From NCBI RefSeq assembly GCF_016598535.1, contig NZ_CP066779.1, positions 2,666,001-2,730,000 on the forward strand: a stretch of DNA of 64,000 bases, in the 5' to 3' direction. This stretch comes from Rhodococcus sp. P-2. GTDB taxonomy: Bacteria; Actinomycetota; Actinomycetes; Mycobacteriales; Mycobacteriaceae. Positions within the stretch are counted from its first letter, which is position 1. Every line of letters begins with the position of its first letter. The notes beneath the pieces were generated by a model. It ran no database searches. It was not told the origin of the DNA and worked only from the letters and a program-made list of their open reading frames with translations. A program made the translations under genes and the position numbers. Of this stretch, positions 42,724 through 58,286 are shown one piece after another.

Positions 42724-43407
42724 TCACACTCTGGCGAGTTCGCTGATCTCCACCATCTCGAGAGCTGCGGCCTTCAGTAGACGGTCGAGGGCTTCTTCGA
42801 CGTCGACTTTCCATTCGTGGTCTCGATTGAGCTCGAGGCGAAGGCGCGGGTAACGATGGTGCGGTGCCACAACCTCGAAACCGTAATCCTCGAGGAACTC
42901 GGCACTGATCATGCATTCTGCGGGTGAACATTCCAGAGCTGCCGTTGCACTGGCCACGTCGGAAGCAGGTCCCAGGTCGTCGCTACGGATACCGAATGCT
43001 TCGAGCGCACGAACTCCGCGTCGAACCAGATCTGTCACGACAGCGGCCAGCAGGCTTGGCCCTAGCTCTTCCTCTATGCCCGAGGGCTCGAGGCGAAGGC
43101 TTGTGAGAAGCACTGCGTCCGAACTGACCGGACTGGTGGGAAACAGTTGCGCGCGTGGGATCATGCGGGGAGGGGCGTACAGCGCGCTGCCGAGCGGCTT
43201 TCCGTCGCGGACGGCCACCTGGCCGCACGAACCCCACTCGAGCATGACCATCGACAGCCAGGCTTCCTTCTCGAATTCCTGATCGCAGAATCCTCGGGCG
43301 TCGTGAAGCGCGCCCGGGTCCATCTCCCAGAACACGCATCGACGCGCATGGGCGGAAAGCTGATCGAGGCTGTCGAGCGTGAGAGAGGTGATGACGTGAG
43401 TCGACAC
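42724..43407 (-). CDS. GNAT-family acetyltransferase-like protein (Rv3916c-like)
   Basis: Encodes 227 residues. The central region GQVAVRDGKPLGSALYAPPR and the later SDAVLLTSLRLEPSGIEEELG, followed by LAAVVTDLVRRGVRALEAFG, fit the GNAT strand-helix pattern, although the acetyl-CoA loop is weak. It is convergent with cwlM and follows parB on the minus strand, as in M. tuberculosis (Rv3916c). No substrate is known. Confidence 0.75.
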   Translation of the reverse strand: MSTHVITSLTLDSLDQLSAHARRCVFWEMDPGALHDARGFCDQEFEKEAWLSMVMLEWGSCGQVAVRDGKPLGSALYAPPRMIPRAQLFPTSPVSSDAVLLTSLRLEPSGIEEELGPSLLAAVVTDLVRRGVRALEAFGIRSDDLGPASDVASATAALECSPAECMISAEFLEDYGFEVVAPHHRYPRLRLELNRDHEWKVDVEEALDRLLKAAALEMVEISELARV

Positions 43408-43581
43408 TGACTAACTCACTCTCCGTAGGTCCCCGAAGCGGTTTCGATGCTCGCCCGCCGCTTTTTTCTTCTCCAGGATAGGCCAGCTGTACCGAGTCGG
43501 CAGTGGCGCGAGAGTTGATCGCTCTAATGTATTGCTGTTCAACATCTTTCGTCCCGGTTCAAGATTTCGAGAAGCTCGGAT

Positions 43582-43614
43582 CACCTATTTTCGTCACAGT
43601 GACGAAAATAGGTG
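43582..43614. repeat. 33-bp perfect palindrome between parB and the GNAT gene
   Basis: Arms of 16 bases (43582-43597 and 43599-43614) are exact inverse complements around one central base. The core TCACAGTGACGAAA recurs at 46739-46752. It may be a bidirectional terminator (14-15 bp AT-containing stem) or a dimeric protein site. The surrounding gap 43408-43662 holds nothing else recognisable. Confidence 0.7.
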
Positions 43615-43662
43615 GTGTGCCCGGTCATCGTCATTACGTCACCAAACGGGCGTCCGAGTTCA

Positions 43663-44703
43663 CTACGTCGATTTCTGCGCTTCCATCATTCCGACGATGC
43701 GTTGCAGGTCGTCGACCGAGCCGAATTCGACCACAATCTTTCCCTTCCGCTTGCCCAGACTGACAGTCACCCGGGTGTCGAACGAGTCCGACAGACGCTC
43801 GGCCACATCCTGCAGACCCGGCATCACGATGGGCTTGCGCTTCTGCGGGGGAGCGATCTCATTGTCCGCCCGGTTGGCAAGAGTGACGGCTTCCTCCGTC
43901 GCCCGAACCGACATTCCTTCCGCGACGATGCGCGCCGCCATGACTTCCTGCGCGTCGGCACCCGCCTCGAGGGACAGTAGTGCGCGAGCATGGCCGGCCG
44001 AAAGTACGCCGGCCGCCACACGGCGCTGAACCGCCACCGGCAGCTTCAGCAGACGAATCATGTTGGTCACGACGGGACGCGAACGTCCGATCCGATTGGC
44101 CAATTCTTCGTGCGTTACTTCGAACTCCTCGAGCAACTGCTGATACGCCGCTGCCTCCTCGAGGGGATTCAACTGCACTCGATGGATGTTCTCGAGGAGC
44201 GCGTCGCGCAACATCGAGTCGTCATCAGTTTCGCGAATGATCGCCGGAATCTTCTCCAGTCCGGCTTCCTGGCTCGCACGCCAGCGACGCTCACCCATGA
44301 CAAGTTGGTACTTGTCACCGTGACGACGGACCACGATCGGCTGCATCAAGCCGAACTCGCGGATCGAGTGAACCAACTCCGCGAGTGCTTCCTCGTCGAA
44401 AACGCTGCGAGGCTGCTTCGGGTTCGTCTCGATCAGGCTCGGTTCGATCTCGAGATAGACCGCGCCGGTCGGCTCGAGTTCTGTCTCCGGCGCCGCTTCG
44501 ACGGCGGCCTTGGCAGCCGGCGCCTTGGTAGCTTTCAGCGTTTTCGGGGCGGCCTTCGTCGGTGGGGGAGGGGAGGGGTTGCGCTTGTCGACGCCGATTA
44601 CGACGTCCGCTGCAGCCGATCCCAGACCCGGCGCCGTCGCCGGCCCAGTGGGAATGAGAGCAGCCAAGCCGCGGCCCAATCCACCTTTGCGTGCTTGACT
44701 CAT
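43663..44703 (-). CDS. parB: Chromosome partitioning protein ParB
   Basis: Encodes 346 residues. The ParB/Srx CTPase domain has [20 protein letters not shown] and the C-motif [13 protein letters not shown]; the helix-turn-helix includes [20 protein letters not shown]. The C-terminal dimer domain is at the end. It loads on parS sites and slides as a CTP clamp to organise the origin region. ATG 44703 lies one base after the parA stop codon. The linker near residues 42-47 (NPSPPPPTK) is encoded by the G-rich 15-mer repeat. Confidence 0.95.
44564..44578. repeat. G-rich 15-mer repeat, copy 1 (inside parB)
   Basis: GGGGGAGGGGAGGGG occurs three times in 4 kb: here within parB, at 46615-46629 and at 48367-48381. 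Copies 2 and 3 lie beside parS sites. Confidence 0.75.
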
Positions 44704-44704
44704 C

Positions 44705-45706
44705 TCACTGCTCCTGGGTCGTCGTGGTGGCAGAGCGGGCGGCAAGTTCGCGTCCGGCGTCGAGGTAACTCATGGCGCCACGTGAACCTGGGTCGTAATC
44801 GAGAACTGTCATTCCGTATCCGGGAGCCTCGGAAACCTTCACGCTGCGCGGAATCACTGCGCGCAGGACGGCCTCACCGAAGTGTTTGCGTACTTCTTCG
44901 GCGACCTGATCGGCCAGCTTGGTACGCCCGTCGTACATCGTCAGAAGGACGGTGGAGACATGCAGATCCGGGTTCAGATGAGCCTGGACGAGTTCGATGT
45001 TGCGGAGCAGCTGACCGACCCCCTCGAGGGCGTAGTACTCGCACTGGATCGGGATCAGAACTTCCTTGGCAGCGACCATCGCGTTGACGGTCAGCAGTCC
45101 CAGCGAGGGTGGGCAGTCGATGAGGACGAAGTCGACGTCGAGCTCTGCGAGCACCTTGTCGTTGAGCGCCCCTTTGAGTCGATTCTCGCGGGCAACCATG
45201 GAGACCAATTCGATCTCGGCGCCTGCCAGATCGATCGTCGCGGGAATGCAGAGAAGCCGCTCACTGTGCGGGCTGGTCTGGATCGCCTCCGGGGCCTTCA
45301 CTTCGCCTATGAGCAACTCGTAGCTCGACGGGGTGCCCGAGGTATGGACGACGCCCAGCGCCGTGCTGGCGTTGCCCTGAGGGTCCAAATCGACTACCAG
45401 GACCGTGAGTCCTTGAAGAGCGAGCGCCGACGCAAGGTTCACTGTGGTCGTCGTCTTACCGACGCCACCCTTCTGGTTCGCGATGGTGATTACGCGACGG
45501 AACGCCGGTTTCGGCAGTGTCACCGAATGTGGATGAAGCACCTGGCTCGCTCGATGCGCGGCCGCCCCGATGGGAGTCTCCTCCGAAGAGATCGCCGCGT
45601 AGGGGGCGGTGAAATTGTCGTCGTCGTTGACAATCTGATCCGCACCCGCGCTGGTGTGCTGCTTCGGTGTTTCACGTGAAACGGCGGATTCAGATCGACC
45701 CGACAT
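44705..45706 (-). CDS. parA: Chromosome partitioning ATPase ParA
   Basis: Encodes 333 residues. The deviant Walker A motif [14 protein letters not shown] begins near residue 87, with [15 protein letters not shown] and [13 protein letters not shown] following. About 80 polar residues precede the ATPase core. It moves origin regions with ParB. ATG 45706 has a strong GAAGGAG site. A parS site lies inside codons for VSRET near residue 9. parB follows with one base between. Confidence 0.95.
45668..45683. promoter_or_regulatory. parS site 1 (within parA)
   Basis: TGTTTCACGTGAAACG matches the parS consensus at 15 of 16 positions. It lies inside the parA N-terminal coding region. Confidence 0.9.
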
Positions 45707-45787
45707 TGACTGCTCCTTCGATTGGGAATCGATCACTAGGTGCTCTCATCATCTGTACATTGCTCTCGATTGCATGCGTGTAAATCA

Positions 45788-46468
45788 TCAACGCTGGCGA
45801 CGCTTCGGGAGACGTTCGGCCTTCACCACCACGGTGGGGGTGCGGAGAATCTTGGCTCCACATTCGAGTATTTCCAACTTACCTGCGCCCAATTTGGTGA
45901 GCGCCGTTCGGTCCCGCTCGATCTCCTCGGCGGCGCTCGAGCCCTTGAGTGCCAGCATCCGACCGTGCTCGTGGATGAGCGGAAGGGACCAACGTGCGAG
46001 CTTCTCCAGAGGCGCCACGGCCCGCGAGGTGACTACGTCCGCACCGCCTGCTTCCTTCACGACACCCGATTCCTCGGCTCGCCCTCGGACAACCAATACG
46101 TCCAATCCGTTGGACTCGATGAACTCCGCGAGGTACACCGAGCGTCGAAGCAACGGTTCGACGAGAGTCACCTTAAGGTCCGGGCGGGCGATCGCGAGAG
46201 GGATTCCGGGTAGGCCGGCGCCGCTTCCTACGTCCACAACCGACTCACCTTCGGCGATCAGTTCACCGATCACTGCGCAATTGAGAAGGTGGCGCTCCCA
46301 CAGCCGAGGAACCTCACGGGGACCAATGAGCCCGCGCTCGACACCATCCGTCGCAAGGGATTGGTAGTACCGTTCCGCGATCTCGTATCTGTCACCGAAC
46401 ACTGCGCGCGCAGTCTCTTGTTCGTCCCAGTCAACCGACGCCGCACCATTCTGTTCCACGTGAAACAT
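45788..46468 (-). CDS. rsmG: 16S rRNA (guanine527-N7)-methyltransferase RsmG
   Basis: Encodes 226 residues. The SAM motif is [31 protein letters not shown] precedes it, and the second family motif is [12 protein letters not shown]. It methylates G527 of 16S rRNA; loss gives low-level streptomycin resistance. The first codons (MFHVEQ) are part of a parS site that overlaps the start. It is located upstream of parA on the same strand, as in Rv3919c. Confidence 0.94.
46452..46467. promoter_or_regulatory. parS site 2 (over the rsmG start codon)
   Basis: TGTTCCACGTGAAACA matches parS at 15 of 16 positions and encodes the first five residues of RsmG on the minus strand. Confidence 0.88.
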
Positions 46469-46614
46469 CCTCCCGCGTAAACCGCGAAATCAACAATCAA
46501 GACCGAAATCATTATCCGCTCTGAAGCCGACATGTGTTCGCTTCTGCACACCGACTCGCTGTGAGTCTGCCGACTCGTTCATTCTTTGGGAAGTATTCAG
46601 ACCAAAATTCAAGC

Positions 46615-46629
46615 GGGGGAGGGGAGGGG
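46615..46629. repeat. G-rich 15-mer repeat, copy 2
   Basis: GGGGGAGGGGAGGGG, four bases before parS site 3. Three runs of four or five G could take part in an intermolecular or three-tract G-quadruplex. Confidence 0.75.
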
Positions 46630-46633
46630 TTCA

Positions 46634-46649
46634 CGTTCCACGTGAAACA
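46634..46649. promoter_or_regulatory. parS site 3
   Basis: CGTTCCACGTGAAACA matches parS at 14 of 16 positions. Intergenic, 167 bases upstream of rsmG. Confidence 0.8.
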
Positions 46650-46677
46650 TCGCGCTGAGAAATCTTGCAATCTGACG

Positions 46678-46693
46678 AGTTTCACGTGAAACA
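46678..46693. promoter_or_regulatory. parS site 4
   Basis: AGTTTCACGTGAAACA matches parS at 15 of 16 positions. It lies 44 bases from site 3 (centre to centre), close to four helical turns. Confidence 0.9.
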
Positions 46694-47040
46694 TACCCGG
46701 GCGATCGAATGCGGATAGCAGCGCGATTCTTAGTATCATCACAGTGACGAAACTCCCATCGGTAGTTACATGGATGGAATTCTGACCCAAAATGGGCAAT
46801 TTTCAACGAAAAAGTGGTTGCAGAAAATCGCGGGCGTCGGGCTGCCGAGCCGACTCGGTCAGTCTGACGCAGTCCATCTTTTGACGCGGATGTTCTTCGG
46901 TACCAAGTCTCGGACAGTTCCGATATCTCATCGCCGGTTGCAGCGAGCCATTCATCCGTCGGCTTGACTCGCCCGCTGCGGGGGACCGGAGACTTGGCAT
47001 CACAAACCGCGAATCAATCCACAGAGCTCCGCAACACATA

Positions 47041-47637
47041 TTGCGCATCGGAGAGTTCGCCCTCGATGTGGAGACCGGTGTCGGCGGGAAGATCAAAGTC
47101 GAGCAGGTGCCCCTGCCCTATGCGCAGGATGAATTCCTGCGCCTGGATTCGAAAGCGCTGCAGGCTCTGCGCGATTACGATCCGCGCTTGGAGCAGGAGT
47201 TGTTGGACGGCAAGGACTACGACCATCTGTTGGTGCATACCGAACCCGGAACCAACAAGATCACCGCTTACTAGTTCGATCCGGGCACCGCCAAGTCATT
47301 CCACCTCGAACAGCCCGGACCCGCTCTCGTGCCGACACCAGCAGTGGGTGTGGGCGCGACGCCGATCGCGCACACCCCGCGAGTCAACCGAGCTCAGGGC
47401 GGTCCCGTGATTACCCCGACCCGGTCCGCAGTGTATTGACCGGAGCCCTTTTTAAATGAGGTCGATTCCTGCTTGCTCGGCAAAGTAGTCGCCGCCGATC
47501 TCACCCCCGAAGCACACAACAGCATCATCGACTTTGCGTGGCGACGAAGCCCATTCGATGTGAGTGGTCCGATTCGTGTGAGGAGCGCGCAAACCTGTTC
47601 CCGCACCGGATGCGATCTCGCCGACCTCGATCGCTAG
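47041..47637 (+). pseudogene. Decayed gene: one frame with two internal stop codons
   Basis: A single plus-strand frame of 199 codons reads as protein throughout with G/C-rich third positions, but is cut by TAG at 47272 and TGA at 47437 before the final TAG at 47635. The first part (IGEFALDVETGVGGKIKVEQ and onward) is acidic and globular-looking. The middle is Pro/Val-rich, and the last part includes GKVVAADLTPEAHNSIIDFA. No start codon with a ribosome-binding site precedes it, so the 5' end is also lost. I do not recognise the family. The final stop overlaps the stop of the convergent gene. Confidence 0.45.
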
Positions 47638-48125
47638 TCCTCGTTCTCGTACTCCGGTTCGGGCACATCCACCCATGCCTGATATCCCGGACTCGTCAGA
47701 CGCAAGTCGATCGCATTGACACCCAGGTGCAGTGAAATGACCGCTTTCGGCAGGTCCCACCGGAGAGCTGCCTTTGGTTCGAGTTCGGCGCTCGTGGCTG
47801 TCCCCAGGAGTGCGGTAAATGCCACATCGAGGTTCGTGAACCCTTCGTCCAGCAGCGGGCGCACCACTGTCATGGGCGTAGCGTCATCTGCCACGTCCGT
47901 GACGAAGATCGAGATCCAATTCATTCTGTGTTGCCGCCCGAACATTATCGATTCGGGCCGACCGACACGGAGTCCGGTCCGAATTGAGGCGCCGGTTTGA
48001 TCCAATTCAACGACCTCCCATCCAGCTCGTGCGCAGAAGGGTTCCAGGTCGTCGACGGCCCAGGTCCAGTCGAATTCTGCGGCGAGGCGGGCGATACGGG
48101 TGGCGCCTTCGATGTCGACGTGCAT
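47634..48125 (-). CDS. Hypothetical protein, possibly DUF6301-like
   Basis: Encodes 163 residues. The opening HVDIEGATRIARLAAEFDWT and the phrase DDLEPFCARAGWEV resemble small actinobacterial proteins of the DUF6301 type that occur in nocardial genomes, often beside secretion or toxin loci; this assignment is from memory and weak. No membrane helix, signal or catalytic motif is visible. The C-terminus is acidic (PEPEYENED). It is convergent with the decayed gene at 47041-47637, so it may be a leftover partner of that gene. Confidence 0.55.
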   Translation of the reverse strand: MHVDIEGATRIARLAAEFDWTWAVDDLEPFCARAGWEVVELDQTGASIRTGLRVGRPESIMFGRQHRMNWISIFVTDVADDATPMTVVRPLLDEGFTNLDVAFTALLGTATSAELEPKAALRWDLPKAVISLHLGVNAIDLRLTSPGYQAWVDVPEPEYENED

Positions 48126-48331
48126 GTGTGGATGCTACTTACTTCTTGATCGTTGTTGACGACGGCCCGATCGGGAGGCGGAGGAGGTGAAGGCTGGCGG
48201 GTTGTCGGTCATCGGATGCCAGCGCCGAAGGTGACGACCTTGCCAGCAGGCCTGACGACGTCACGTCGGTGATCCATTGTGGCGGCAATCTGGGGCGGAG
48301 ATCGAGGGCGTGGGGCAACAACCATCGATCT

Positions 48332-48347
48332 GGTTTCACGTGAAACG
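48332..48347. promoter_or_regulatory. parS site 5
   Basis: GGTTTCACGTGAAACG keeps the perfect 14-base palindromic core GTTTCACGTGAAAC. It lies in the 257-base gap between the DUF6301-like and membrane protein genes, which otherwise holds only the third G-rich repeat. Confidence 0.88.
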
Positions 48348-48366
48348 AAGGCCGGCTATTCGGTCT

Positions 48367-48381
48367 GGGGGAGGGGAGGGG
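48367..48381. repeat. G-rich 15-mer repeat, copy 3
   Basis: GGGGGAGGGGAGGGG, 19 bases after parS site 5 and ending just before the stop codon of the next minus-strand gene. Confidence 0.75.
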
Positions 48382-48382
48382 C

Positions 48383-48727
48383 TCACATGTAGTACGGCAT
48401 GTTGTCGATCGAATATCCGAACATGCACAGTGCACCCCCGACAAACAAGAAGGCAATCGCGAAGCTGAGCATGACCGATCTCCCGGATCGCCATGCCAGT
48501 GCAAGTGGAATGAATACGACGGCGACTACTCCCAGCGGCAACAACCAACAGAGCCAATACTTCAGACCGCCCGGCGGGAAAGACTGGACTTCCATTTTCT
48601 GCTGCAGTTCGAAGACCACGGGCCAATAACTCAGGCCACACACGAGAATCCCTATCAAGGCCCCAAGGGTCATCAATCCGAGAGGGAATCCGGAGCGCTC
48701 GTAGGACATGTCGACAACGATAGGCAC
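48383..48727 (-). CDS. Small three-helix membrane protein of unknown function
   Basis: Encodes 114 residues from GTG 48727 (ATG 48709 is an alternative). Three hydrophobic segments lie at about residues 15-38, 55-77 and 84-106. No conserved motif is recognised. A GAAGG sequence precedes the GTG, and parS site 6 lies 27 bases upstream. It is an addition to the conserved jag-rsmG order of mycobacteria. Confidence 0.55.
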   Translation of the reverse strand: MPIVVDMSYERSGFPLGLMTLGALIGILVCGLSYWPVVFELQQKMEVQSFPPGGLKYWLCWLLPLGVVAVVFIPLALAWRSGRSVMLSFAIAFLFVGGALCMFGYSIDNMPYYM

Positions 48728-48753
48728 CCAACCTTCACCGTGCCGAGAGATTC

Positions 48754-48769
48754 GGTTTCACGTGAAACA
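48754..48769. promoter_or_regulatory. parS site 6
   Basis: GGTTTCACGTGAAACA matches parS at 15 of 16 positions. It lies between jag and the small membrane protein gene. Confidence 0.9.
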
Positions 48770-52233: not shown

Positions 52234-53796
52234 GTGAACGACGATCCCAACGCGCTCGCACGGGTCTGGGTCGACGTGGTTGCAGAACTCACGAGTGATG
52301 ACCCCGGAAGTAATCTTCCGGCTTTGAGCAGCAAGCAGAAGGCATTCGTCCGTCTGGTGAGGCCTCTCACACTTGCTCAGGGTTTTGCACTCCTCTCGGT
52401 TCCATCGCCATTTGCTCAAGAAACGATCGAGCGCGATCTCCGCGAGCCGATCCTGCAGGCACTCGGCCGCCACCTCGGCGGCCAGGTCGAGGGACTCGGT
52501 GTCCGCATCGCACTCGAAGACGATGCCGACGCACCCGCCGAACCGGTCGAGGAGCGCACGGGCAGCCGTCAGTTCGAGTCGGTCAACTCCTCCGGCGCAT
52601 ACCGTCGTCGACGGTTCACCGAAGGCGACGGCGAACCGTCGGACTCCGAGACTGCCGAGTCCGAAGAAGTCGACGACGACCGCGAAGCACTGGCAAGCGT
52701 TCACGAATCGTGGCCGTCGTACTTCACGAAGCCGCCTGCTACTCCTTCTGCTTCGGGGTCCGGCGCGAACAGTCTCAACGCGAAGTACACCTTCGACACT
52801 TTCGTGATCGGATCGTCCAACCGATTCGCGCATGCCGCTGCGGTCGCGATCGCGGAGGCGCCGGCGCGTGCGTACAACCCGTTGTTCATCTGGGGAGCTT
52901 CAGGACTGGGCAAGACCCACCTTCTTCACGCCGCCGGCCACTACGCGCAGCGACTGTTCCCCGGCATGCGGGTCAAGTACGTCTCGACCGAAGAATTCAC
53001 CAACGACTTCATCAACAGTCTTCGTGACGACCGCAAGGTCGCGTTCAAGCGTCGATACCGGGAAACGGACGTCCTGCTGGTCGACGACATCCAGTTCATC
53101 GAGGGCAAGGAAGGTATCCAGGAGGAGTTCTTCCATACCTTCAACACCTTGCACAACGCGAACAAGCAGATCGTCGTCTCCTCGGACCGTCCGCCCAAGC
53201 AGTTGGCAACCCTCGAGGAGCGTCTGCGGACGCGCTTCGAATGGGGCCTGATCACCGACGTTCAGCCGCCTGAGCTCGAGACGCGTATCGCGATTCTGAG
53301 CAAGAAGGCGAGGATGGATCGCCTCGAGGTCCCGCACGACGTCCTCGAGTTGATCGCCAGCCGTATCGAGCGCAACATTCGTGAACTCGAGGGCGCGTTG
53401 ATCCGCGTCACCGCTTTTGCCTCGCTCAACCGCCAGCCGTTGGATCTGACGTTGGCCGAGGTGGTCCTGCGCGATCTGATGCCCGATTCGTCGAGCCTCG
53501 AGATCAACGCGGCGACGATCATGGCGGTGACGGCCGAATACTTCAACATGTCGATCGACGACCTGTGTGGGCCGGGTAAGGCCCGGCCACTCGCTCAGGC
53601 CCGCCAGATCTCGATGTATTTGTGCCGTGAGCTCACCGATTTGTCATTGCCGAAGATCGGTCAGACGTTCGGCCGTGACCACACGACGGTCATGTACGCA
53701 GACAAGAAGATCCGTAAGGAAATGACGGAACGCCGCAAGGTGTACGACCAGGTTCAGGAGTTGACCGCAAGGATCAAGCAGCGCTCCAAGCGCTGA
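52234..53796 (+). CDS. dnaA: Chromosomal replication initiator DnaA
   Basis: Encodes 520 residues. Domain I is at the N-terminus; an acidic linker (about 110-160) follows. The AAA+ domain has Walker [15 protein letters not shown] and Walker [10 protein letters not shown]. Domain IV carries the signature [13 protein letters not shown], which reads the DnaA box. GTG 52234 follows a GGAAGGAA site. It opens the origin at the boxes found on both sides of the gene. A 15-bp hairpin follows the stop. Confidence 0.98.
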
Positions 53797-53813
53797 CCTG
53801 CACTTATTTCGAT

Positions 53814-53852
53814 CGATGCCGCTCGAGGCAGAGGTTCCCTCGAGCGGCATCG
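53814..53852 (+). terminator. Hairpin terminator after dnaA
   Basis: Fifteen perfect pairs between 53814-53828 and 53838-53852 around a nine-base loop, starting 17 bases after the dnaA stop codon. Each arm contains a CTCGAG palindrome. Confidence 0.7.
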
Positions 53853-54134
53853 GTGTATTCGAAGGGTTCCACGTGCGGTCCCCTCGAGGGCGGTTGTCCA
53901 CCTCGAGGGACGACACGCCGGAGTCGGACACGCCGATGAGAACAAACTCTTCGTTTCTTGTGAAAAGTATTCACATCTGTGGATAACTGTGTTGATAACT
54001 CTCAAAGTCTGTGGAGTTCTCGAGGAGGAATCCAAAAACTTTCAGAGAGTGCACAGAGGGGGCCGATTGGTCCTCGAGTCTGTCCTCGAGAAGTGCACAG
54101 GCCCTCGAGGGGACCTACCAGCGTCGACAACCGT

Positions 54135-54210
54135 TGCTCCACAGATTGCACAGGACTTATTACTACTACTGAGAATTTCCTAGGAAAAGCTCTTTGAAAA
54201 TAGTTCTGGG
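54135..54210. promoter_or_regulatory. DnaA-trio-like unwinding element
   Basis: A DnaA box variant (54135-54143) is followed after 13 bases by TTATTACTACTACTGA (54157-54172). On the lower strand this reads outward from the box as 3'-AAT-AAT-GAT-GAT-GA, the polarity and pattern described for DnaA-trios. The next 40 bases are AT-rich and include the palindrome TTTCCTAGGAAA. Confidence 0.55.
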
Positions 54211-54380
54211 GACAACTCCTGTTGAGAACCTCGCCTCAGACTGCGCTCGTCCCGGCTTCGGCTTTCCACTTGCGCCCTCGAGGGCATACGGTGGGCATCG
54301 CTTGGTCTGTGTCAGACTTCAAGTGAGCTGATGCAGATCCGCAGCAGACGAACATGCCTACCGAGAGGAATAACCCGGCG

Positions 54381-55565
54381 ATGGAGCTTGGAAGCCTGAA
54401 GTTTCGCGTTTCCCGGGAAGAGTTCGCTGATTCAGTAGCGTGGGTTGCTCGTAGCCTGCCCTCGAGGCCGCCTGTGCCGGTTCTCGGCGGAGTTCTTCTC
54501 GACGCAACCGAAGCCGGCCTCACCGTTTCCGGGTTCGACTACGAGGTATCTGCGCAGGTCCGCGTCTCGGCAGATGTCACAACTGCAGGTCAGGCACTCG
54601 TCTCGGGTCGCCTCCTTGCCGATATCACCAAGTCGCTTCCCAACAAGCCGGTCGATGTGACCCTCGAGGGCACTCGCGTGCTCATCTCGTGCGGAAGCGC
54701 CAAGTTCTCCCTGCCCACGATGCCGGTCGAGGACTACCCCCAGCTTCCGACGCTTCCGCAGCAGTCCGGGTCCATTCCCGTCGACCTGTTCTCCGAAGCC
54801 ATCAGCCAGGTAGCCGTTGCAGCCGGCAAGGACGACACCCTTCCGATGCTCACGGGTATCCGTGTCGAGATCGAACAGAATTCGATCGTCCTCGCCGCTA
54901 CCGACCGTTTCCGTCTCGCCGTGCGTGAACTCGAGTGGACTCCGGCAAATCCCGACGTCCAAGCTGCTGTTCTCATCCCGGCCAAGACTCTGTCGGAGTC
55001 CGCGAAAACGCTTGCCGGCAATGCAAATTCGCCGGTCGAGTTGGCTCTCGGTTCCGGCACGACCATCGGAAACGACGGACTTCTCGGCATCGTCAACGAC
55101 GGACGCCGCACCACGACGCGTCTCCTCGACGCCGAGTTCCCGAAGTTCCGTCAGCTGCTGCCCGCTCAGCACACCGCGATGGCAACGGTCGAGGTCACGC
55201 CTCTCATCGAGGCCATCAAGCGTGTGGCACTCGTCGCCGAGCGTGGCGCACAGGTTCGCATGCAGTTCTCCGCTGACGGCCTGCTCCTCTCCGCTGGTGG
55301 CGACGACGCCGGCCGCGCGGAAGAGACGCTCAACGCCTCGTTCCAGGGCGAAGCACTCACCATTGCGTTCAACCCCGGTTACCTGATCGACGGGTTGAAC
55401 TCGCTTCACAGCGAAAACGTTCTGTTCGGCTTCACCACTCCCAGCCGCCCGGCTGTTCTTCGCCCCGCGGCCGAGGAAGAGCCCACGGCAGACGAGTCCG
55501 GTAACTTCGCTGCGCCCTCGAGCGAGTACACGTACCTGCTGATGCCGGTTCGACTTCCGGGCTGA
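54381..55565 (+). CDS. dnaN: DNA polymerase III beta sliding clamp
   Basis: Encodes 394 residues in three clamp domains. The N-terminus [20 protein letters not shown], the central [20 protein letters not shown], and the C-terminal [12 protein letters not shown] are typical. It forms the ring that tethers the polymerase. ATG 54381 is used; the frame is open further upstream but without better starts. It follows oriC and precedes gnd, as in related genera. Confidence 0.97.
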
Positions 55566-55609
55566 GTGGTACCCCGCACTTCAGTTCGCGCCTGACCAGG
55601 GAGAACAGT

Positions 55610-56518
55610 ATGAAGATCGGACTCGTAGGTCTCGGCAAGATGGGCTTCAACATGCGTGAGCGCTTGCGCGCGCATGGCCTCGAGGTGATCGGATACGACC
55701 CTCGACCTGAAGTCACCGACGTCGGGTCTCTTGCCGAACTCGCTGCTTCCCTCGAGGGACCTCGAGTCGTGTGGGTGATGGTTCCTGCCGGCGAAATCAC
55801 TCAGAGCACCATTGCCGAACTGGCGGATGCCCTCGAGGGCGGCGATCTGGTCATCGACGGTGGAAACTCTCGCTTCACCGACGACGCCGTTCATGCCGAG
55901 CTGTTGGGCGCCCGTGAGATCGGTTTCCTCGACTGCGGTGTCTCCGGTGGCATCTGGGGCCGTGAGAACGGCTACGGACTGATGGTGGGCGGATCCGAAC
56001 CCGACGTGGCGAAGGCAATGCCGATCTTCGACGCCCTTCGCCCCGACGGCGACGCGGCCGACGGTTTTGTCCATGCCGGCCCGGTCGGTGCTGGTCATTA
56101 CGCAAAGATGGTGCACAACGGCATCGAATACGGCCTGATGCAGGCGTATGCCGAAGGGTACGAGCTCCTCGAGGCGGAAAGCCTGATCGCGGACGTTCCC
56201 GGTGTGCTCCGAGCCTGGTCGAAGGGAACCGTCGTACGTTCGTGGTTGCTCGATCTGCTTGTCGACGCCCTCGAGGAGGATCCGGAGCTTGCGCAGATCA
56301 CGGGCTATACCGAGGATTCCGGCGAGGGCCGCTGGACCGTCGAGGAAGCCATCAAGCACGCTGTCCCCGCTCCCGTCATCTCCGCTGCTCTGTTCGCGAG
56401 ATTTGCTTCACGACAGGATGATTCACCGGCCATGAAGGCTGTGTCCGCCTTGCGCAATCAGTTCGGCGGTCACGCGGTCAAGAGCGCTTCGCCCAAGAAT
56501 TCGGCTTCTGGAAGCTAA
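55610..56518 (+). CDS. gnd: 6-phosphogluconate dehydrogenase (decarboxylating), short GndA/YqeC type
   Basis: Encodes 302 residues, the short form, against about 470 for the classic enzyme. The cofactor motif is GLVGLGKMGFNM. Catalytic residues are in CGVSGGIWGRENGYGLMVGG and VGAGHYAKMVHNGIEYGLMQ, with Lys as base. It converts 6-phosphogluconate to ribulose 5-phosphate. Asp32 after the second strand (GYDPRPE) suggests NAD rather than NADP use. Its place between dnaN and recF is common in mycobacteria and rhodococci. Confidence 0.92.
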   Translation: MKIGLVGLGKMGFNMRERLRAHGLEVIGYDPRPEVTDVGSLAELAASLEGPRVVWVMVPAGEITQSTIAELADALEGGDLVIDGGNSRFTDDAVHAELLGAREIGFLDCGVSGGIWGRENGYGLMVGGSEPDVAKAMPIFDALRPDGDAADGFVHAGPVGAGHYAKMVHNGIEYGLMQAYAEGYELLEAESLIADVPGVLRAWSKGTVVRSWLLDLLVDALEEDPELAQITGYTEDSGEGRWTVEEAIKHAVPAPVISAALFARFASRQDDSPAMKAVSALRNQFGGHAVKSASPKNSASGS

Positions 56519-57748
56519 GTGTTCGTTCGTAGATTTTCGCTGCGGGACTTCCGATCCTGGGATTCGCTGACGCTCGACCTCACACCGGGAACAACTGTCT
56601 TCCTCGGTTCGAACGGGCACGGTAAAACCAACGTCCTCGAGTCACTCGGGTATCTGTCGACACTGTCGTCTCATCGAGTGTCCACGGACGCACCGATGAT
56701 CCGCAGCGGTTCCGCGAGTGCTTTTGCCGGTGCAACGGTGGTCAACAACGGGCGCGAACTGACCATCGATGTCGAACTGATCGAGGGAAAGTCCAACCGC
56801 GCCAGGATAAATCAGTCTCCGACGCGTCGCCCACGCGAAGTGCTGGGGATTTTGCAGTCGGTGATGTTCGCGCCGGAAGATCTGTCGTTGGTACGTGGTG
56901 ATCCTGGTGATCGTCGACGCTATCTCGACGAGTTGTTGACGTCGCGGATTCCCCGAATGGCTGCTGTCCGTGCGGATTACGACAAAGTTTTACGCCAGCG
57001 TTCGGCGCTGCTCAAAACTGCCGGTGCGGCTTTGCGCCGCGGTTCTCGTGGTGGTGAGTCGGACAACGTCCTCTCCACCCTCGAGGTGTGGGACGGGCAT
57101 CTGGCCGCTCACGGCGCACAATTGTTGGCTGGGCGCCTCGAGTTGGTCCACGATCTGGCGCCGCACCTGGCGGAGTCGTATCGTTCCATCGCGCCCGAAT
57201 CCCGGCCGGCCTCGATCCGATACAAGAGCAGCCTGGGTGCGTCGTTGGATCCCGAATTCACCGACCCTGCAAGGATTTCCGGTATCGACGACGTTGCGTA
57301 CCTCGAGGAGCGATTCCATCTCGAGTTGGCGCAGATGCGTTCGAAGGAAATCGATCGCGGAGTGTGTCTGGTCGGTCCGCATCGGGACGACCTGGAGCTG
57401 ATTCTCGGCGACAGTCCGGCGAAAGGCTTTGCCAGTCATGGTGAATCGTGGTCTTTCGCGCTTTCGCTGAGACTGGCAGGTTTCGCCCTGCTACGCGCCG
57501 ACGGCAGCGACCCGGTATTGATGCTCGACGACGTGTTCGCGGAATTGGACCGTCGTCGGCGTCGTGCGCTCGCCACCGTTGCCGCCACCGCAGAACAGGT
57601 GCTGATCACGGCCGCTGTTCCCGAGGACGTGCCGGACGAACTCGAGGCGACCAAGTTCGGCGTCGAAGCTTCCGATACCGGAGACGGTCGGATATCCCGG
57701 ATAGTGCCCGTAGGCTCGACGGATCAGGAGGTCGAGATCGATGACTGA
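56519..57748 (+). CDS. recF: DNA replication and repair protein RecF
   Basis: Encodes 409 residues. Walker A is [14 protein letters not shown], the ABC signature region reads [15 protein letters not shown], and Walker B is [11 protein letters not shown]. RecF helps load RecA at gaps with RecO and RecR. GTG 56519 follows the gnd stop codon directly, and its 3' end overlaps dciA by eight bases. Confidence 0.96.
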
Positions 57749-58286
57749 AGACAGCAGCGCGGCTCCGGAGCCCGAGCTCAAGGGGATCGATCTGGCGCGC
57801 CGTGCCCTCGAGGAGGCGCGCGCGACAGCCAAGGCCAACGGCAAGGCCGTCGGGCAGGGGCGTTCTTCGCCCAAATACGGAAGCGGCCGCCCGCGTCGGC
57901 GCAGCGGTTGGTCCGGCCCCGGCCCGGATGCGCGGGACCCTCAGCCGTTCGGTGCTCTCACCAGCGCTATCTCCAAGTCGCGTGGGTGGTCCCCCAAGGT
58001 GTCCGAGGGCACGGTCCTCGGTCGGTGGCCGCAGGTCGTCGGTGAAGACATCTCCGCGCACGCCGAGCCGATTTCTCTGAAAGAAGGTGTTCTCAGTATC
58101 TCCGCCGAGTCGACGGCATGGGCTACTCAGTTGCGCATGATGCAGTCCCAGATCCTGGCCAAGATCGCTGCTGCCGTCGGTGACGGTGTCGTGAAGACGC
58201 TGCGCATCACCGGTCCGAGCGCGCCTAGCTGGCGCAAGGGTGAAAGGCATGTGAAAGGCCGCGGACCTCGCGATACGTACGGCTGA
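57741..58286 (+). CDS. dciA: DciA-type replicative helicase loader/operator (DUF721)
   Basis: Encodes 181 residues. The first 75 are charged and Gly/Arg-rich. The DUF721 core starts at about residue 76 with [20 protein letters not shown], then [15 protein letters not shown] and [16 protein letters not shown]. In mycobacteria the counterpart Rv0004 interacts with DnaB and is needed for replication. It overlaps recF, while in M. tuberculosis gyrB comes next; here three extra genes intervene. Confidence 0.9.

Follow-up and report, generated by a model that had tools for sequence, protein, structure and literature searches.

To our knowledge, little is known about what regulates replication initiation in Actinobacteria apart from DnaA. 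In Escherichia coli, oriC is characterized by its distribution of GATC sites and by the pairing rule under which SeqA binds them. The role of SeqA at this origin is covered by a 2026 review (PMC13076061), whose main text mentions neither Nocardia nor Rhodococcus. Blow et al. (2016; PMC4752239) tied four origin motif clusters to orphan methyltransferases and suggested that such clusters take part in replication. One of the four, described for Nocardia and the Nocardiaceae, is a CTCGAG cluster between dnaA and the polymerase III gene, whose presence correlates with that of an orphan methyltransferase for CTCGAG. A further point of reference is BsuMI of Bacillus subtilis, which generates 5-methylcytosine (m5C) at CTCGARB (PMC7261158). 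Here, we describe a CTCGAG array at the replication origin of Rhodococcus sp. P-2, located in a window of 64,000 bp (positions 2,666,001-2,730,000 of the single 6,340,135-bp contig; window positions are used unless stated otherwise), whose DnaN is 100% identical to those of R. qingshengii IEGM 1359 and R. erythropolis NBRC 15567.

This array agrees with the cluster of Blow et al. in motif, place and bacterial family; for that cluster, a correlation with a methyltransferase and a part in replication control had been put forward (PMC4752239). The core of the observation, i.e. CTCGAG clusters at the origin and their link to a methyltransferase, is therefore already published, and a first-pass annotation of the window, which had proposed a methylation mark or an origin-associated protein other than DnaA, rediscovered it. 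What is new is a likely writer enzyme—a cytosine-5 methyltransferase whose gene adjoins those of a restriction-enzyme-like protein and of Vsr—and the layout of the array; helical phasing, fixed offsets from DnaA boxes, spread by codon choice and the nuclease/Vsr neighbourhood do not appear in the text of Blow et al. that was accessible to us (PMC4752239). A literature search for CTCGAG at oriC of Rhodococcus returned no paper, PMC4752239 was, judged by titles, the sole relevant paper found on CTCGAG methylation in Nocardia, and no experimental follow-up of the Nocardiaceae clusters was noticed, judging mostly from listings.

The dnaA-dnaN gap of Rhodococcus sp. P-2 (53797-54380, 584 bp) contains nine CTCGAG hexamers, at 53822, 53839, 53883, 53902, 54019, 54073, 54085, 54104 and 54277, which corresponds to 15.4/kb. 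The density remains at 6.5/kb over 53816-57820, i.e. through dnaN, gnd and recF, and drops to 0.85/kb over bases 1-40000, just as the first-pass annotation had described it. Overall, the window contains 98 copies where 39 are expected. In 20 stretches of 20 kb from the same genome (400 kb), we counted 317 copies (0.79/kb) with a maximum of four per 585-bp window, and the Poisson probability of at least nine copies in the gap is about 6e-10; a uniform genome-wide density, which would have spoken against a special role of the motif, is thus not what is found. The decamer CCCTCGAGGG occurs only 18 times in the whole contig, with six of these copies at contig positions 2719881-2721839 (window 53881-55839, 1,959 bp), at exactly the places listed in the first-pass annotation, three of them in the gap; two further copies in the window are at 45021 and 60693. 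Since the octamer CCTCGAGG is already present 468 times genome-wide, the concentration at the origin is strongest for the longer palindrome. Chance and base composition were rejected as the source of this density on the strength of shuffled sequences, the 400-kb sample and the decamer count for the whole contig. Like the clusters in the class of Blow et al., this one lies in non-coding origin DNA and stands out from background. The region is built as follows.

52234-53796, plus strand: dnaA, with six CTCGAG, all in-frame Leu-Glu
53797-54380, no strand: dnaA-dnaN gap (oriC), 584 bp, nine CTCGAG
53814-53852, plus strand: terminator-like hairpin after dnaA, a perfect 15-bp inverted repeat (-35.3 kcal/mol, z -4.3) whose arms hold CTCGAG 53822 and 53839
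53881-53890, no strand: CCCTCGAGGG decamer
53902-53907, no strand: CTCGAG
53978-53998, minus strand: DnaA-box pair, the anchor of the conserved layout, with a perfect box at 53978-53986 and a box with one mismatch at 53990-53998, 12 bp apart
54019-54024, no strand: CTCGAG, +41 from the box pair
54073-54090, no strand: core pair of CTCGAG at 54073 and 54085 (spacing 12 bp; +95 and +107 relative to the box pair), the positions conserved best among Rhodococcus relatives
54102-54111, no strand: CCCTCGAGGG decamer
54150-54190, no strand: A+T-rich stretch with TTACTACTACT, A+T 0.60-0.68
54275-54284, no strand: CCCTCGAGGG decamer
54381-55565, plus strand: dnaN, with four CTCGAG and a decamer at 54661
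55610-56518, plus strand: gnd (6-phosphogluconate dehydrogenase family), with six CTCGAG and decamers at 55749 and 55830
56519-57748, plus strand: recF, with six CTCGAG
57741-58286, plus strand: dciA (PF05258), end of the dense zone

The two copies at 53822 and 53839 have an ordinary terminator-like explanation, because both sit in the arms of the hairpin directly after dnaA. The other seven are placed around the DnaA-box pair 53978/53990 and the A+T-rich stretch, which is likely the unwinding region; its TTACTACTACT we take to resemble the DnaA-trio. The palindromes had been said to alternate with DnaA boxes. Strictly, they do not: 53883 and 53902 lie beside a single weak box (53894), and most of the other copies are grouped downstream of the box pair.

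Outside the dense zone, a second, weaker CTCGAG-rich zone at 42724-44703 covers parB and an adjoining unassigned open reading frame (ORF), with CTCGAG used for 11 of 14 Leu-Glu; the decamer at 45021, near this zone, lies in parA. Four exact GTTTCACGTGAAAC sites, which are parS-like, are found at 45669, 46679, 48333 and 48755, i.e. 5-8 kb before oriC, and one-mismatch copies at 46453 and 46635 fall into the same stretch (45669-48768).

Beyond its density, the array is for the most part in phase with the DNA helix and keeps its place with respect to the DnaA boxes. Twenty representative gaps were picked automatically; in these, 75 of the 98 neighbour distances between 7 and 40 bp are 10-12, 21-23 or 31-33 bp (the 15-bp array of locus L033 having been removed from this set as near-identical to another gap), and in 23 gaps chosen by hand, with L033 included, 93 of 128 are in phase; the P value for this phasing assumes independent distances, an assumption violated by shared ancestry. 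With some exceptions, the sites are therefore paired on one face of the helix in the manner of SeqA sites. In the opacus group, array positions are 87, 99, 111, 123, 135, 147 and 159, and in Nocardia spacings of 11 or 22 bp are common; what departs most clearly from phasing is the L033 gap itself (Prescottella agglutinans), with six CTCGAG exactly 15 bp apart. Measured from the box pair, CTCGAG occupies +63/64, +95/96 and +107/108 in 19, 23 and 22, respectively, of the 25 array-bearing Rhodococcus-side gaps with an anchor (the array-bearing L051 and L055, in which no anchor was found, are not counted; for L025 and L033 a neighbouring box served as anchor). Spacers diverge between gaps while hexamers stay: in an alignment of eight erythropolis-group gaps, 43 of 54 columns within sites are invariant versus 313 of 495 elsewhere (P 0.016).

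Among the named relatives, 80 dnaN loci yielded 78 readable dnaA-dnaN gaps. Fifty-three contain 6-16 copies of CTCGAG, one contains four (L091, R. fascians A44A) and 24 contain 0-2, and CTCGAG is the commonest palindromic hexamer in every gap with at least six copies. The cluster is thus found at the orthologous place in several organisms (53/78), as in the class defined by Blow et al. Array-bearing are the erythropolis, opacus, rhodochrous and rhodnii groups, Prescottella, Aldersonia and Nocardia (all 26 readable named loci of the latter); array-less are most Rhodococcoides, the R. oryzae/spelaei/RD6.2 group, the 1168/H36-A4/G-MC3 group and Antrihabitans, both loci of which keep a single CTCGAG at the core position +95. 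The remaining members of the family and order that were read outside the array-bearing groups, presumably with Mycobacterium among them, have 0-2 copies. The comparison with relatives that the first-pass annotation had suggested cuts both ways: the array is widely kept, but lost in Rhodococcoides, Antrihabitans, the R. oryzae group and others, so it cannot be essential throughout the family. In 25 Nocardia genomes, the palindrome extends to a 16-mer, GANTCCTCGAGGANTC, with 1-4 copies per genome (reversed control: 0), which in each genome span no more than about 220 bp of a single contig, bar one extra site in G203; their place beside dnaN was confirmed in G062 and G096, the two genomes checked.

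In Rhodococcus relatives, the array extends into dnaA-recF by synonymous codon choice. In dnaA-dnaN-gnd-recF of Rhodococcus sp. P-2, Leu-Glu is written as CTCGAG in 19 of 21 cases versus 227 of 544 across the sampled stretches of the genome (P 5e-6), and separate use of the two codons in these genes predicts 17%. For the array-bearing Rhodococcus-side loci (n = 24), the count is 306/366 near the origin versus 404/607 further out (P 3e-9); for the array-less loci (n = 24), it is 187/320 versus 251/453 (P 0.42). This comparison leaves out L023, L031, L063 and L091, and its P values are rough, as related genomes are not independent.

As for the enzyme that might write a mark on these sites, the sole conserved candidate found in the genome of Rhodococcus sp. 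P-2 is the following cytosine-5 methyltransferase.

C1:3091105-3092397: cytosine-5 methyltransferase, candidate writer (PF00145, 160 bits), adjoining a restriction-enzyme-like protein and Vsr (PF03852)

Unlike the enzymes in the class of Blow et al., it does not look like an orphan in this genome, where it adjoins a nuclease-like gene; in 19 of the 34 orthologue-bearing genomes of our panel, no nuclease gene was found in the available stretch beside the methyltransferase. The panel comprised 91 genomes, 52 of which were read for arrays (in G049, where dnaA was not located, by counting CTCGAG in the 600 bp before dnaN). The other 39 are mostly from other families of the order and include genomes with no readable gap, such as G004 and G026, which end at a contig edge. 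Across the genomes read, the array is almost confined to those encoding this conserved methyltransferase. Where it is accompanied by Vsr, with no nuclease gene found beside it, 18 of 19 genomes have at least eight CTCGAG, the remaining one, Nocardia G062, having three in 1.5 kb; where methyltransferase, nuclease and Vsr stand together, 10 of 14 have an array; and among genomes lacking a close methyltransferase orthologue, one of 19 does (G009, 75% complete). With G062 set aside, an orthologue is present in 28 of 29 genomes with at least six sites versus 4 of 22 with at most two (naive P 4e-9). The methyltransferase looks necessary for the array but not sufficient.

That it would recognize CTCGAG we infer from a database label and the literature: two of its listed relatives are named 'putative BsuMI modification methylase subunit YdiP'. 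Besides this name on two relatives, the predicted cytosine-5 chemistry links it to BsuMI; it differs in its make-up, one methyltransferase together with one nuclease-like gene and Vsr, and in its association with an origin array, none being mentioned for BsuMI in the part of the source available (PMC7261158). In genomes with no nuclease gene found beside it, the gene order, first the cytosine-5 methyltransferase and then Vsr (PF03852), recalls Dcm-Vsr, from which the pair is set apart by its association with the origin array and by a recognition region that appears to be different.

Other methyltransferases of this genome were considered as writers. A type-IIG-like protein (PF07669) at about 46-50 kb of the genome was set aside; this 1386-aa Eco57I-type methyltransferase-like protein (L196:5923-10083) is encoded where third-position GC is low and, as judged by eye, only a few kb away from an integrase-like ORF, and may belong to a type IIG or phage-defence system. 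An island at about 2.770-2.774 Mb was likewise set aside; it is defence-like (L012:166-4217), with a McrB-like ATPase and D12 adenine and type-III-like methyltransferases, near glutamate synthase genes. A third protein, at 5.976 Mb (L194:7969-9303), in which an XRE helix-turn-helix domain is fused to a cytosine-5 methyltransferase with no evident nuclease neighbour, was rejected as it has orthologues of at least 95% identity in only five of the 91 genomes, its own included, all of the erythropolis group. PF02384 gave no match over the cut-off in this genome, and a genome-wide PF02086 (D12) search was not made, so that a further D12 enzyme may exist.

We lean towards reading the array as an origin DNA-methylation mark with a bound reader. 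That the CTCGAG sites are methylated, that the modification is m5C, that there is a reader and that initiation is affected, is what we infer from the patterns described above. In this mechanism, the methyltransferase at C1:3091105-3092397 would methylate CTCGAG on both strands, replication would leave the array hemimethylated, and phased hemi- or fully methylated sites would be bound cooperatively by a putative reader in the interval that separates the DnaA boxes from the A+T-rich region. Such binding would delay or time the following round of initiation, much as SeqA acts through GATC in E. coli. The methyltransferase itself probably began in a restriction-modification system, with several lineages having lost the nuclease and kept methyltransferase and Vsr. 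With respect to the first-pass annotation, whose interpretation is supported in part, the idea of a methylation mark matches the published prediction, since Blow et al. reported CTCGAG clusters at this place in Nocardiaceae in the text accessible here (PMC4752239), and agrees with the conserved methyltransferase. As to the idea of an origin protein other than DnaA, helical phasing and long flanking palindromes suggest a binding protein too. The parallel to Dam/GATC/SeqA would consist of a short origin-enriched palindrome, pairs on one face of the helix and hemimethylation as a possible timer; it would end at the modification, likely m5C and not N6-methyladenine (m6A), at the site of 6 instead of 4 bp, at the location of the candidate writer in a restriction-modification operon, and at the reader, as no SeqA-like protein was identified here (a genome-wide search was not made).

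Several observations weigh against this reading. A test that takes the DnaN tree into account (with G062 counted as array-bearing) leaves 4-6 independent contrasts, of which on average 1.5 point the same way and none the opposite way, which is not significant. Four genomes (G032, G212, G221 and G223) encode the methyltransferase with a near-identical recognition region and have no array, and the 75%-complete G009 has an array with no methyltransferase found. In every group, the background count of CTCGAG is neutral (observed/expected 0.81-1.16), so that nothing genome-wide ties the methyltransferase to the motif and neither restriction pressure nor a Vsr bias on CTCGAG is supported. The likeness to BsuMI is by label and not by sequence comparison; the label is automatic, and another relative is labelled 'Modification methylase BanI'. 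The longer flanking palindromes, i.e. the Nocardia 16-mer and the decamer of Rhodococcus sp. P-2, extend beyond the site that a CTCGAG methyltransferase would require. At a distance from the origin, too, Leu-Glu is written as CTCGAG about 2.3 times more often than expected from separate codons, in array-bearing and array-less Rhodococcus-side loci alike, which is why the local comparison of near and far is the fairer one. Nocardia has no significant local rise in this comparison (84/219 versus 225/637, P 0.46), so the dense zone looks selected in Rhodococcus and limited to the gap in Nocardia. Finally, no reader protein was found in a co-occurrence screen of the genes within about 10 kb of dnaN, none of which, with crude gene models, convincingly tracks the array. 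For this screen, which covered 24 of the 26 Nocardia loci and 22 of the 24 array-less ones, an alpha/beta-hydrolase gene was tried as a follower of the array and rejected (17/24 array-bearing Rhodococcus-side, 15/24 Nocardia and 4/22 array-less loci), and a 106-aa ORF was seen at 21/24, 8/24 and 6/22 of these loci, respectively.

The main rival explanation is that CTCGAG is the half-site or core site of a methylation-independent protein—an initiator helper or a nucleoid protein—that binds cooperatively on one face of oriC, with shared ancestry accounting for the link to the methyltransferase. Phasing that persists despite varied spacer sequence, palindromes extending beyond the hexamer in Nocardia as well as in Rhodococcus sp. 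P-2, the four genomes with enzyme and no array and the weak phylogeny-aware support all fit such a protein. However, an array with no methyltransferase occurs in just one of 29 genomes, an incomplete one, a CTCGAG methyltransferase is reported from the same family in the accessible text of PMC4752239, and the genes within about 10 kb of dnaN, with crude gene models, include none that convincingly follows the array; altogether, we regard it as a serious but rather unlikely explanation.

Codon usage is a far less probable source. With CTC and GAG as preferred codons, the genic copies could be a by-product and the gap arrays old, functionless slippage repeats from tandem duplication, in line with mostly in-frame Leu-Glu copies, the excess of CTCGAG for Leu-Glu far from the origin and the constant 12- or 15-bp spacing of some arrays. 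Yet nine copies stand in non-coding DNA, hexamers are kept where spacers have diverged, the origin genes of Rhodococcus sp. P-2 exceed the usage of their own genome sample (19 of 21 versus 227 of 544), and array-less relatives have no significant local rise in the same region, all of which makes this account improbable. Least probable of all, and in our view barely tenable, is that transcription elements of dnaA and dnaN, i.e. a terminator and promoter operators, explain the palindromes: the stable hairpin 53814-53852 directly after dnaA does use two of the nine copies, but seven copies remain as isolated palindromes, including one pair with a spacing of 12 bp, that surround the DnaA boxes and the A+T-rich stretch, and the pattern recurs in relatives at positions set by DnaA boxes.

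Returning to the methylation mark with a bound reader, its most specific form would be a once-per-cycle origin timer of Nocardiaceae, in which a writer with its origin in a restriction-modification-Vsr operon sets m5C instead of an adenine mark, and a dedicated protein that assembles cooperatively along phased CTCGAG sites beside the DnaA boxes reads it. We put this forward tentatively, as a possibility about which we are more doubtful than about the mark as such. Array-less sister genera with the same enzyme, as well as lineages lacking the enzyme, provide natural controls, and R. erythropolis is a species that can readily be handled in the laboratory. A probable m5C writer originating from restriction-modification and the helical layout of its putative target sites should be of interest to specialists and open the question to tests in such a species. 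If the array is indeed a methylation mark with a reader of its own, Nocardiaceae would hold an independently evolved counterpart of Dam/SeqA that uses a different modified base and arose from a restriction-modification system.

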